In this document: piece after piece, positions 6,041-9,885 of the stretch | How positions within the stretch are numbered: the stretch's first letter is position 1 | Layout of the letters: the number at the start of each line of letters is the position of its first letter | Assembly (NCBI GenBank): GCA_016218365.1 | Contig: JACREF010000001.1 | Coordinates: 1-45,742, forward strand | Source: Gammaproteobacteria bacterium | GTDB taxonomy: Bacteria > Pseudomonadota > Gammaproteobacteria > SZUA-140 | Length of the DNA stretch: 45,742 nt | Direction: 5' to 3' | Notes under the pieces: generated by a model | Seen by the model: only the letters and a program-made list of their open reading frames with translations | The model's database searches: none | Told to the model about the DNA's origin: nothing | Made by a program: the position numbers and the translations under genes

Positions 6041-6113
6041 CCGCCCCCCTCGTCTGTCCGGCGATTATACGAGCCGGACCGGTCGCCAGCCAGCCATGGC
6101 CGGGCAAAACGGT

Positions 6114-6119
6114 TATAAT
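6114..6119 (+). promoter_or_regulatory. -10 box upstream of ttcA
   Basis: A perfect TATAAT lies 36 nt before the TTG start of ttcA. No convincing -35 is present at 17 nt. Transcription from here would begin after the in-frame ATG at 6096, which argues against that codon as the start. Confidence 0.45.
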
Positions 6120-6155
6120 GTCCGGCCCGGTGCACGTGGACCATGGAGAGCTCGG

Positions 6156-7025
6156 TTGGCCGATCTGGAAAAAAAACTGCTGCATTACACCGGCAAGGCG
6201 ATCGCCGACTACAAGATGATCCACAAGGGTGACCGGGTCATGGTCTGCCTGTCCGGCGGCAAGGATTCCTATACGCTGCTGACACTGCTGAACACGTTGC
6301 GGCTGAAGACCCATAACAAGTTCGAGCTGTTTTCGTACACGCTGGACCAGGGCCAGCCGGGCTGGGACGACAGCGGGCTGCGCGCCTGGCTGGCCGACAG
6401 CGGCATCCCGCACCTCATCGAGTCCCGCGACACCTATTCGATCGTGCTCGACAAGGTGGCCGACGGCAAGACCTATTGCTCGATGTGTTCGCGGCTCAGG
6501 CGCGGCAATATCTACCGTTATGCCCGCGATCACGGTTTTAACAAGATCGCGCTCGGTCATCACCGCGACGACCTGATCGAGAGCCTGCTGATGTCGATCC
6601 TGTACAGCGGCGAGGTGCGCTCGATGCCACCGAAGCTGCTGACCGACAATAAGCGTCACATCGTCATCCGCCCGCTGGTCTACTGCCAGGAACGGGACAT
6701 CGCCGCCTATGCCCGGCAGCAGGGCTTTCCGATCATCCCGTGCAACCTGTGCGGCTCACAGGCCAATCTGACCCGCGCCCGGGTCAAGCAGCTGATCGCC
6801 GAGCTGGCGCAGCACAACCCCAAGGTACCCTCCAACATGCTGAACGCGATCGGCAACCTGCGCATCAGTCAGCTGATGGACAAGCGTCACTGGAACTTCG
6901 GTGGTCTTGAGCAGCAGATGCTGGAACTGGATCCCTCCGACAGCAGCGAGGCTGACGACTCACCAGAACCGTGGGATCAGGGACCGGTGGCCCGGCTAGG
7001 CGGTATCCCGGTGATCACCGAATAA
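6156..7025 (+). CDS. ttcA: tRNA 2-thiocytidine(32) synthetase
   Basis: Installs the 2-thio group on cytidine 32 of certain tRNAs, using ATP and a 4Fe-4S cluster. The 289-aa product has the PP-loop SGGKDS (residues 33-38), the CxxC pair Cys108/Cys111 ([11 protein letters not shown]) and a further Cys pair in [10 protein letters not shown] chose the TTG at 6156 because GGAGAG sits 5 nt upstream and the likely promoter -10 box (6114-6119) lies after the alternative ATG at 6096. Choosing 6096 would add 20 atypical residues. Confidence 0.93.
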
Positions 7026-7032
7026 CAGGCCA

Positions 7033-7389
7033 TCAGCCACCGAACAGCCGATCGCGAAACATGAAGAACACCGCACCGAGCAGACACAGCGCCGCCCACA
7101 GGTAATCGAGCTTCAGCGGCTCGCGCAGGTACAGCAGCGCAAAGGGCACGAACACCGACAATGTGATGACCTCCTGCAGGATCTTCAGCTGGCCGACACT
7201 CATCACGGTATAACCGACGCGGTTGGCCGGCACCTGCAGCATGTATTCGAAGAAGGCGATCCCCCAGCTGACCAGCGCCGCGATGATCCACGGTCGCGTA
7301 TTCAGCAGCTTCAGGTGCCCATACCAGGCAAAGGTCATGAACAGGTTACTGAGCCCCAACAGCACGGTGGTGGTGATAAATGGATGCAC
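7033..7389 (-). CDS. DMT-family protein (DUF486)
   Basis: A 118-aa inner-membrane protein with four hydrophobic segments and the DUF486 motif SNLFMTFAWYGHLK near the N-terminus. The family resembles half of an EamA-type drug/metabolite transporter and probably dimerises; substrates are unknown. The GTG at 7389 follows AGGGGG and gives the usual family start (MHPFITT); an ATG 39 nt further out has no such site. It lies 49 nt downstream of ppnP on the same strand and converges on ttcA with a 7-nt gap. Confidence 0.85.
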   Translation of the reverse strand: MHPFITTTVLLGLSNLFMTFAWYGHLKLLNTRPWIIAALVSWGIAFFEYMLQVPANRVGYTVMSVGQLKILQEVITLSVFVPFALLYLREPLKLDYLWAALCLLGAVFFMFRDRLFGG

Positions 7390-7438
7390 ACTGCCCCCTG
7401 GCAACAGCGACTGATTCAGTCGACGCAATGCGTTGCTA

Positions 7439-7753
7439 TCACTTGAGGAATGAACAGCAGTAATCGGTCCCCTGCTTGACCTTCATCCGGAACGACGCAT
7501 GGGCCGGGACATCGAAGGCCATGCCCGCGCTGATCTGCTGCCAGCCATTGCCGCCCGGCAGCTGCACATCGAGCTCGCCGGCCAGGATTTCCATGACCTC
7601 GGCCGCATCGGTAGTGAACTCGTACTCGCCCGGCTGCATATACCCCAGCGTCTTTCTGCTGCCATCGGCAAACAATACGCTACGGCTGACGACCCGGCCG
7701 TCAAAATAGACGTTCGCCTTCTTGACCACTGTTACATTCTTGAATTCTGACAC
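7439..7753 (-). CDS. ppnP: Pyrimidine/purine nucleoside phosphorylase (DUF1255)
   Basis: A 104-aa single-domain cupin that splits nucleosides with phosphate into base and ribose-1-phosphate, as shown for E. coli YaiE/PpnP. Family landmarks are the N-terminal NVYFDGRVVSRSV, the GEYEFTT turn, the ELDVQLPG strand and FDVPAHASFRMKV. It is of the usual length. It is probably co-transcribed with the DUF486 gene behind it. Confidence 0.92.
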   Translation of the reverse strand: MSEFKNVTVVKKANVYFDGRVVSRSVLFADGSRKTLGYMQPGEYEFTTDAAEVMEILAGELDVQLPGGNGWQQISAGMAFDVPAHASFRMKVKQGTDYCCSFLK

Positions 7754-7844
7754 TGCATTACCCCTGTCATGATCTCCACCCTTGCGGGAACCCTGGCCAT
7801 GCTAGCGTTTGCCCACCCTCCAGACAATCCCACCCGGGCGCACT

Positions 7845-7870
7845 AAAAAAACGGGGGCTTGCGCCCCCGT
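7845..7870 (-). terminator. Rho-independent terminator after the 30-aa membrane protein gene
   Basis: On the minus strand an 8-bp stem, ACGGGGGC pairing with GCCCCCGT around a 4-nt loop, is followed by seven T. It ends the transcript of the small gene at 7901-7993, 30 nt after its stop. Confidence 0.88.
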
Positions 7871-7900
7871 CAAATGGTCATGAACTAACAACGTTCGGTA

Positions 7901-7993
7901 TCAGGCGCCGCCGGTCAGGTGCGAAAAAAACAGACCGAACGAAATAACAATGCCTGCAATCCCGGCCAGTGCGGTAATCTTATGTTCAAACAT
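7901..7993 (-). CDS. 30-aa single-span membrane protein (small paralogue 1)
   Basis: A 30-codon gene starting MFEHKITALAG and ending GLFFSHLTGGA. Residues about 8-24 form one hydrophobic helix. The ATG at 7993 follows AGGGGAGA 7 nt upstream, a strong ribosome binding site, and a clear terminator lies 30 nt after the stop. The C-terminus shares GLF-x-SHL with the second small gene at 8231, so the two are probably paralogues. It could be a small subunit of a membrane complex or a regulator of one; I cannot name a family. It is easily missed by gene callers because of its length. Confidence 0.75.
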   Translation of the reverse strand: MFEHKITALAGIAGIVISFGLFFSHLTGGA

Positions 7994-8104
7994 TTCGACT
8001 CTCCCCTATATTTGGTTTATAGCTGCAACGGATAACTTCAATGCCCCCTCCCGGAGACAGGGTTTACCTTAGCAAAGCACTCGGTTTTACGCAACCTGCC
8101 AAAT

Positions 8105-8134
8105 AAAAAGGCCCGGGGGATTAACCCCCGGGCC
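8105..8134 (-). terminator. Rho-independent terminator after the 27-aa membrane protein gene
   Basis: On the minus strand a perfect 10-bp GC stem, GGCCCGGGGG against CCCCCGGGCC around a 5-nt loop, is followed by five T. It lies about 100 nt downstream of the stop of the small gene at 8231-8314. The two small genes are therefore separate transcripts. Confidence 0.88.
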
Positions 8135-8230
8135 CTCCAACCCTTGCGGATTGTCAGCGTACTGATTGTTACCCGGCCGTTAGTCGTGCTCCGTTGCAGA
8201 GAGTCGTCACTTGGAGGCCGGATGCACAGC

Positions 8231-8314
8231 TCAGGCTGCCAAGTGGCTGACGAACAGCCCGACGGCGGTCAGGATAAAGGCCAGTGACAGCAGAATTGAC
8301 ATGGTATTTTCCAT
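8231..8314 (-). CDS. 27-aa single-span membrane protein (small paralogue 2)
   Basis: A 27-codon gene starting MENTMSILLSLAF and ending GLFVSHLAA, with one hydrophobic helix (about residues 5-22). The ATG at 8314 follows AAAGGAGA at 7 nt, close to an ideal ribosome binding site. The C-terminal GLF-x-SHL is shared with the gene at 7901. An AT-rich region with an operator-like palindrome lies upstream (8372-8405). It was probably formed by tandem duplication with its neighbour. Function unknown. Confidence 0.75.
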   Translation of the reverse strand: MENTMSILLSLAFILTAVGLFVSHLAA

Positions 8315-8371
8315 GAGATATCTCCTTTGTTGACATTAGAACGTACAATCATGACCAAAACACTCAACTTC

Positions 8372-8405
8372 ACCTTATTTATTATAGTTGTATATGGAAT
8401 AAGGT
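8372..8405. promoter_or_regulatory. Operator-like palindrome around a -10 box
   Basis: ACCTTATT (8372-8379) and AATAAGGT (8398-8405) form a perfect 8-bp inverted repeat with an 18-nt spacer. A second, overlapping 10-bp repeat pairs 8375-8384 with 8405-8414. On the minus strand TATAAT (8386-8381) lies inside it, upstream of the 27-aa protein gene, with a poor -35. This layout fits a regulator-dependent promoter. The regulator is unknown. Confidence 0.45.
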
Positions 8406-8580
8406 AATAAATAATTAACCCCTTTGGCCATCGCTGTCAAGTGCCTGTTGCGCAGGGCGCTTGACACGTTATGCTAGGCGACATGATCCATGCCTGGCGG
8501 ACATCGATGCACTACCATACTTTCATGTATCTATTGAACTTTCTCCCTTACACCCATCTGACTGCAACGGAGAACACGAT

Positions 8581-9885
8581 TTGAGCGACCAGTTAAATAA
8601 TCAGCGTTTCGTCGATTGGTTTCGAGGCTCTGCCCCGTATATACACGCCTTCAGGGATCGCACATTTGTTATCGTCATCGGCGGCGAGATCTTGAATGAG
8701 CAGGGCTTTGCCCCGCTGGCCCATGATCTCGCACTGCTCAACGGCCTTGGCATCCGTCTGGTGCTGGTGCACGGCGCCCGGCCGCAGATCGAGGCCCGAC
8801 TCAAGGCCAGATCGCATCAGATCCAATACATCAATGGTCAGCGCGTCACCGATGATGTTGCGCTGCAATGCGTCATCGAGGCCGCCGGCAGCCTGCGCGT
8901 CGAGATCGAGGCGCTGCTGTCGATGGGGCTGGCCAATTCACCGATGGCGGGTGCGCGGATCCGCGCCACCTCCGGCAACTTCGTCACTGCCCGCCCGGTC
9001 GGCGTCCGTGACGGGATCAACTTCGGCCACACCGGCCAGGTGCGGCGTATCGACCATGCGGCGATCGCCGCCCAGCTGGACCAGCGCGCCATCGTGCTGC
9101 TGCCGCCGCTGGGGTATTCGCCGACCGGCGAGGTCTTCAACCTGTCGGCGATCGAGGTAGGGGCCGCGGTGGCCAGCGCCTTGCGGGCCGACAAACTGAT
9201 CTGCCTGACCGAACGCACCGCTGGGCTGCCGCGGCAACTGACTCTGGATGAGGCGCAGTCCTCATTGGCAGCACGCCCCGGCGACGACGATCTGTTACAT
9301 GGACTGTTGTCGCACGCCGTCCATGCCTGCCGCCATGGCGTACGCCGCGCCCATCTGCTCGATCGTCATGTCGACGGGGCGCTGCTGCTCGAACTGTTCA
9401 CCCGCGACGGCGTTGGCACGATGATCAATGCCGACGTCTACGAAGGCACCCGCGGCGCCACACTGGAGGACATCGGCGGCATCCTGGAGCTGATCGCCCC
9501 GCTGGAAGACAGCGGCGTGCTGGTGCGACGCTCGCGCGAGAAGCTGGAGATGGAGATCGATGACTATCTGGTCATCGAGCGCGATGGCATGATCATCGCC
9601 TGCGCGGCCCTGCACCTGTTTCCGGCCTGCCCGCTCGGTGAGCTGGCCTGTCTCGCCGTACACCCCAGCTATCACAAGGGAGGGTATGGCAACAGCATCC
9701 TTGAGTCCATCGCGGCCCGGGCACGGGAGCGTGGCCTGAACTCGCTGTTCGTGCTGACCACCGAGGCCTCGCACTGGTTCCGGGAACGTGGCTTCGAACC
9801 CGGCACACTGCAGGCCCTGCCGATGGAGAAGCAGGCCCTGATCAATTACCAACGCAACTCGCAGGTCTTCATCAAACAGCTTTGA
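8581..9885 (+). CDS. argA: N-acetylglutamate synthase
   Basis: First step of arginine synthesis: acetyl-CoA plus glutamate gives N-acetylglutamate. The 434-aa protein has an N-terminal amino-acid-kinase-like domain (from FVIVIGGEI through the arginine-sensing region, to about residue 290) and a C-terminal GNAT acetyltransferase domain (about 300-434, with LACLAVHPSY and the acetyl-CoA loop HKGGYGNSIL). Its length is close to E. coli ArgA (443 aa). I chose the TTG at 8581, with GGAGA 7 nt upstream, over longer in-frame starts; it gives the usual N-terminus before FRGSAPYI. The cobalamin adenosyltransferase gene starts 24 nt after the stop. Confidence 0.95.
   Translation: MSDQLNNQRFVDWFRGSAPYIHAFRDRTFVIVIGGEILNEQGFAPLAHDLALLNGLGIRLVLVHGARPQIEARLKARSHQIQYINGQRVTDDVALQCVIEAAGSLRVEIEALLSMGLANSPMAGARIRATSGNFVTARPVGVRDGINFGHTGQVRRIDHAAIAAQLDQRAIVLLPPLGYSPTGEVFNLSAIEVGAAVASALRADKLICLTERTAGLPRQLTLDEAQSSLAARPGDDDLLHGLLSHAVHACRHGVRRAHLLDRHVDGALLLELFTRDGVGTMINADVYEGTRGATLEDIGGILELIAPLEDSGVLVRRSREKLEMEIDDYLVIERDGMIIACAALHLFPACPLGELACLAVHPSYHKGGYGNSILESIAARARERGLNSLFVLTTEASHWFRERGFEPGTLQALPMEKQALINYQRNSQVFIKQL

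Follow-up and report, generated by a model that had tools for sequence, protein, structure and literature searches.

Two microprotein genes beside argA and the undescribed gammaproteobacterial family to which they belong

The window, i.e., the entire analyzed stretch of 45,742 nucleotides from a gammaproteobacterium, carries two tandem genes for tiny single-helix proteins (Table 1), which our analysis shows to be real and old genes, the local representatives of a hitherto undescribed family of the Gammaproteobacteria. The strongest feature of this family, which had no part in the earlier note on this DNA, is its constant position beside argA, the gene for N-acetylglutamate synthase, from which it is divergently transcribed at all loci examined. 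What the earlier note had proposed from the letters of the window, namely that these are genuine, paired, single-helix microproteins, is now strongly supported by their conservation, synteny and codon substitutions, and neither peptide has a match in the family libraries. As for their role, our best guess is an accessory or regulatory one in a complex of the inner membrane.

Table 1. Coordinates of the microprotein genes, their expression signals and the neighboring genes in the window
Feature	Position	Strand	Details and basis
Microprotein gene 1	8231..8314	-	27 aa, MENTMSILLSLAFILTAVGLFVSHLAA; ORF
Microprotein gene 2	7901..7993	-	30 aa, MFEHKITALAGIAGIVISFGLFFSHLTGGA; ORF
Shine-Dalgarno site of gene 1	8320..8327	-	AAGGAGAT; sequence; purine-rich site retained in all relatives
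Shine-Dalgarno site of gene 2	8001..8006	-	GGGGAG; sequence; retained in relatives
Probable promoter of gene 2	8066..8094	-	-35-like TTGCGT 8094-8089; extended -10 TTTGCTAAGGT 8076-8066
AT-rich region with candidate gene 1 promoters	8381..8440	-	TATAAT 8386-8381; TTGACA-18-AATTAT 8440-8411; consensus match, sequence
Rho-independent terminator after gene 1	8105..8137	-	-29.8 kcal/mol, z -3.4
Rho-independent terminator after gene 2	7844..7871	-	Scan; fold -22.5 kcal/mol
argA (amino-acid N-acetyltransferase)	8581..9885	+	NCBIfam PRK05279/TIGR01890; TTG start at 8581 inferred
ttcA-type PP-loop gene, convergent	6096..7025	+	Pfam PF01171; tblastn in relatives
ppnP-like pyrimidine/purine nucleoside phosphorylase	7439..7753	-	Pfam PF06865

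The two genes and their conservation in the home family

An ORF filter calling for an ATG start, 22-45 codons, a Shine-Dalgarno site and a mean hydropathy above 2.2 over 17 residues, with settings picked when both ORFs were already known, passes genes 1 and 2 as the sole ORFs in the 45.7 kb window. None passed it in 40 shuffled windows, and the intergenic region, shuffled 2000 times, yielded a mean of 0.0005 passing ORFs. The earlier note had pointed to two ORFs with strong Shine-Dalgarno sites and one predicted helix each and had held them to exceed chance; both ORFs lie where it placed them, and the uniqueness of the pair under the filter, together with the near-zero yield of the shuffles, bears out the second part of its contention. 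Each gene combines a short conserved ORF, a ribosome-binding site and a hydrophobic helix of membrane length, the combination that marks a single-span microprotein. Searches of Pfam, NCBIfam, PHROGs and the PDB returned no convincing match to either peptide, in keeping with their earlier description as unannotated. Sub-threshold matches to MS_channel_1st, MotA_ExbB, Doppel, the LtaA flippase and two PHROGs families were rejected as matches of one hydrophobic helix to another, as was the sole PDB profile match, 1fs9, whose E value of 5.7 is that of chance.

The peptides of genes 1 and 2 are identical at 10 of 27 ungapped positions, a score reached by 6 of 20,000 shuffles; the match between their GLFxSHL tails, taken alone, is reached by 36 of 20,000. 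Because a profile built from the relatives of gene 2 only retrieves gene 1 (E 4.5e-4), the two are most likely paralogues, to judge from their sequences.

Among the 20 home-family genomes surveyed, the tandem pair is present in four (G000, G003, G004 and G008), while a fifth, G001, has gene 1 only. Homologues of gene 1 occupy the same site in G001, G003, G004 and G008, and those of gene 2 are found in G003, G004 and G008. In G004 and G008, the pair lies between argA and ttcA; in the genomes of genus g3, ttcA directly follows argA and the pair is missing. Likewise, the microprotein genes are missing from the sibling genera g6 and g7 and, since these three genera do without them, they are dispensable.

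The pairwise codon changes bear the imprint of purifying selection: every comparable pair within the home family has a dN below its dS, as do nearly all comparable pairs overall, one example having 18 synonymous versus 2 changed codons (rows with gene 1 of G259 were left out, being misaligned owing to a shifted start). For gene 2, dN is well below dS and, between G004 and G008, 12 changes fall on third positions as against 3 and 3 on the other two. Thus, the codons follow a protein-coding rather than a non-coding pattern, and homologues, which the earlier note had suggested seeking in related genomes, are found both in the home family and beyond it.

A wider family at a fixed place beside argA

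Searches with single sequences got no further than the home family, and profiles were needed to reach the wider relatives. The gene 2 profile led to members in families f101 and f128; in the latter (L068 and L069), argA is followed by two tiny genes under a single promoter, a single terminator and then ttcA. A scan upstream of argA across 80 named loci added Candidatus Tenderia (L079), L071 and L142, along with a single-gene variant in L074, L083 and L091 (e.g., MERSVTLLVNAALIVGIFILLIANAQF in L083), and a combined profile picked out G055, G354 and G318 from 369 genomes of the class, the first of these being the carrier in family f37. The nucleotide identity of 80-86% between the L079 contig and G259 puts f128 within or beside the Tenderiales. 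Order-wide searches found carriers in 9 of 11 genomes of that order, usually as a two-gene operon, in 3 of 5 genomes of the f101 order and in 4 of 24 of the f65 order. Relatives are, therefore, known from four families besides the home family, i.e., at least five families in total; tblastn against plasmids gave no match.

On the argA tree, whose backbone support is weak, the carriers fall in a few neighboring groups and the presence of the microprotein maps as six changes, a distribution that would fit an old origin followed by losses. The carriers are mostly metagenome assemblies, such that absence from an incomplete genome is weak evidence, and the probable homology of the most distant core types draws on short sequences together with their common position.

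That position is a fixed one. In 22 of 22 carrier loci (a few of which are the same or near-identical genomes from two collections), the microprotein genes are divergent from argA, at a distance of 212-582 nt. The whole-genome profile searches were run without anchoring to argA, and the carriers that profile A4 retrieved although they had no part in building it (G354, G318, G385, G388-G392 and G415) are all divergent from argA too. The distal neighbor, on the other hand, varies: ttcA in f1 and the Tenderiales (flanking the genes in G004, G008 and the Tenderiales), moeA in f101, a DnaJ-domain gene in G318 and an ntrC-type regulator in G001. In the window, the ppnP-like gene is the next one downstream, past the terminator and co-directional with the pair, and it was not seen beside the pair in the relatives read. 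More broadly, window positions 7033-7753 hold the ppnP-like gene and a DUF486 gene between ttcA and the pair, an insertion by comparison with G004, G008 and the Tenderiales. In a literature search covering few subscription journals, no argA-linked small protein was found described.

The core alignment of 26 sequences, each of 25-27 residues, has no internal gaps. It is marked by a glutamate at position 2 (E2, 25 of 26 cores) and by a polar residue at position 24 (25 of 26: H 11, Q 7, E 3, Y 2, N 2), which, with the core length and the divergence from argA, define the family. Small residues occupy positions 10, 13 and 17 in 62-81% of the cores. Positions 6, 10, 13, 17, 20 and 24 share a heptad face, the one richest in small and polar residues, though it is suggestive only, as 640 of 20,000 column permutations (about 3%) score equally well or better; plain entropy periodicity of the same alignment gave no significant helical signal. 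AlphaFold2 models the gene 2 product as a single helix over residues 2-28 (mean pLDDT 89.9, from a 4-row alignment).

The GLFxSHL tail, which the earlier note had taken as a shared hallmark and a handle for finding relatives, is indeed common to both peptides, but a search of related genomes finds it in the home family only, members elsewhere ending in ATELMA, SQLMV, ANAQF or ITYL. The SHL tail is, accordingly, the local version of the polar end of the core rather than a signature of the family. Charge suggests that the N-terminus lies inside, a topology further supported by the second microprotein of the Tenderiales (L068, L079 and L172), in which a basic N-terminal extension (MYREIKRPV or MYTGIKKPV) precedes the core.

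Promoters, leaders and terminators

The probable extended -10 of gene 2 is unique in the window, even allowing up to 1 mismatch, and it or a close form of it precedes gene 2 in G004 and G008 as well as the genes in f101, f37 and the Tenderiales. In the Tenderiales, the element has a TTGAAA-like -35 with an AT-rich block above it. This block, resembling TTTAATTnTGAnTnTTTTnGTAAAAAA and lying just above the -35, is kept in L068, L069, L079, L172, L174-L176 and L178, and is possibly an UP element or a site for a regulator in the interval that separates the microprotein genes from argA. The 5' leaders extend for ~80-110 nt after the -10 and often start with a hairpin; in several Tenderiales leaders (L068, L079 and L175) it lies near the presumed 5' end of the transcript. 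Upstream of gene 1, window positions 8360-8410 contain an interrupted inverted repeat, ACCTTATT ... AATAAGGT, with ATCCATAC ... GTATGGAT at the corresponding place in G001; it may be an operator of altered sequence.

Both terminators are more stable than all of the 200 shuffles made of each. The earlier note had given each gene a terminator of its own and had proposed looking for its conservation. This holds for both genes in the window and, in the relatives, for gene 2, after which G003, G004 and G008 have hairpins of differing sequence in the corresponding place, as the Tenderiales loci have after their operon. Gene 1 has a similar terminator in G003, but a simple scan recognizes none in G004 and G008 and, hence, an own terminator is not universal for this gene. 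Overall, the signals look like those of a vegetative, separately controlled expression unit, and the strong ribosome sites and conserved promoter suggest that the microproteins may be abundant.

Possible roles and comparison with known systems

We propose the following plausible course of action for these microproteins. Each would probably be made from a vegetative promoter and inserted such that the short charged N-terminus stays in the cytoplasm and position 24, with its polar residue (H, Q, E, Y or N), comes to lie close to the outer surface of the inner membrane. The small and polar face (positions 6, 10, 13, 17 and 24) could then pack on the paralogue and/or on a larger membrane protein, allowing the microprotein to stabilize or tune an inner-membrane complex as a single-span accessory or regulatory subunit. 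We give this role about an even chance of being right. A part in a membrane complex, as subunit or as regulator, was already envisaged in the earlier note and is still the best guess, though no partner was found, no operon was seen to join the microprotein genes to one for a complex subunit, and two well-known kinds of complex are argued against below.

The alternative of greatest interest is a functional tie to ArgA; the linkage to argA may be functional or a matter of inheritance only. Under such a tie, the divergent pair would be co-regulated, and the microprotein would connect N-acetylglutamate synthesis, and with it the arginine supply, to the membrane, e.g., as a recruiter or modulator of ArgA or of a transporter. 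The unbroken divergence from argA, at 212-582 nt, while the distal neighbor changes, and the adherence to the same rule of the carriers that had no part in building profile A4, speak for it. Yet ArgA is a soluble enzyme, only about four residues of the peptide would be left in the cytoplasm to meet it, sibling genera keep argA without the peptide, and vertical inheritance of the neighbor accounts for the linkage equally well. We regard this tie, the suggested recruitment or modulation included, as unlikely, and the broader proposition of a physical or regulatory coupling, through this family, between the initial step of arginine synthesis and the inner-membrane state as quite unlikely.

It is unlikely that the pair encodes membrane-acting peptides akin to type I toxins under antisense RNA control. 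Their size, single helix, tandem copies and occurrence as isolated units recall DinQ (PMC3567139), and the long leaders with 5' hairpins would also suit such a system. Against this, the genes keep one site across families instead of being scattered, the peptides in the window have no basic tail and come with strong Shine-Dalgarno sites, and no conserved antisense promoter was seen: the only plus-strand promoter match (7985-8012) is weak, no better than chance, and its sequence is not retained in the relatives.

A short ORF followed by a terminator, in separate small transcripts, could also denote a leader peptide or the coding part of a dual-function regulatory RNA. We consider this very improbable, given that the amino acids are conserved while third positions drift and that the Rfam matches in the window are tRNAs only. 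Moreover, in G004, G008 and the Tenderiales, the gene past the terminator is the convergent ttcA, which leaves nothing to attenuate and makes attenuation very unlikely.

Of similarly slight probability is a small subunit of a cytochrome bd or canonical cbb3 oxidase (CydX/CydH/CcoM-like), although such oxidases do have single-helix subunits of this size class (PMC4325964 for CydX). The PDB set offers no sequence match, subunit I of bd oxidase (PF01654) is missing from G000 (97% complete), G146, G354, G119, G318 and G399 among other carriers, several of which, the genome of the window included, are near-complete, and ccoN above the canonical cut-off is missing from G000, G146, G354, G055 and G318; as several carriers have neither enzyme, both subunit roles are strongly disfavored. 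Nearly all carriers, but also most non-carriers, have a divergent ccoN-like oxidase (~220 bits), for which a related subunit role is conceivable; its representative in G000 (G000:C29:29426-30727) is a full-length ccoN-like heme-copper oxidase scoring far below the ccoN cut-off, and it possibly belongs to a distinct oxidase class. Finally, that both ORFs are products of chance, as their very short length might suggest, has a negligible probability and is refuted in practice by the shuffles, the conservation across genera, the substitution pattern and the constant synteny.

Annotation routinely leaves out genes of fewer than 50 codons, and here a 27-residue protein could be recognized as real from raw sequence. 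The microprotein has apparently persisted in at least five families at a single genomic spot, unnamed in the libraries searched. The family, which includes the electroautotroph genus Tenderia, is now defined for the hunt for partners, and why the peptide stays beside argA is a testable question.

Among known systems, the type I toxins DinQ, TisB, Ldr and Ibs are likewise hydrophobic, of ~20-35 residues, and encoded in isolated and sometimes tandem units, whereas the argA-linked pair has a fixed syntenic site over several families and shows neither a basic tail nor a conserved antisense promoter. CydX/CydH, CydY and CydZ are tiny single-span subunits of bd oxidase with few conserved residues that are often unannotated (PMC4325964). 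These partner cydAB, whereas the microprotein genes adjoin argA and their products have no sequence match to them. CcoM, a small subunit of the Pseudomonas stutzeri cbb3 oxidase and an orphan single-helix microprotein, is similar in size and helix number, but several carriers of our family lack canonical ccoN and the PDB gives no match. The argA-linked microproteins differ from YohP, AcrZ, MgtS and KdpF, small single-span proteins of E. coli, in having no family-library match to any of these and a different gene neighborhood; the two sets are alike in their general kind, that of single-span accessory or regulatory microproteins.
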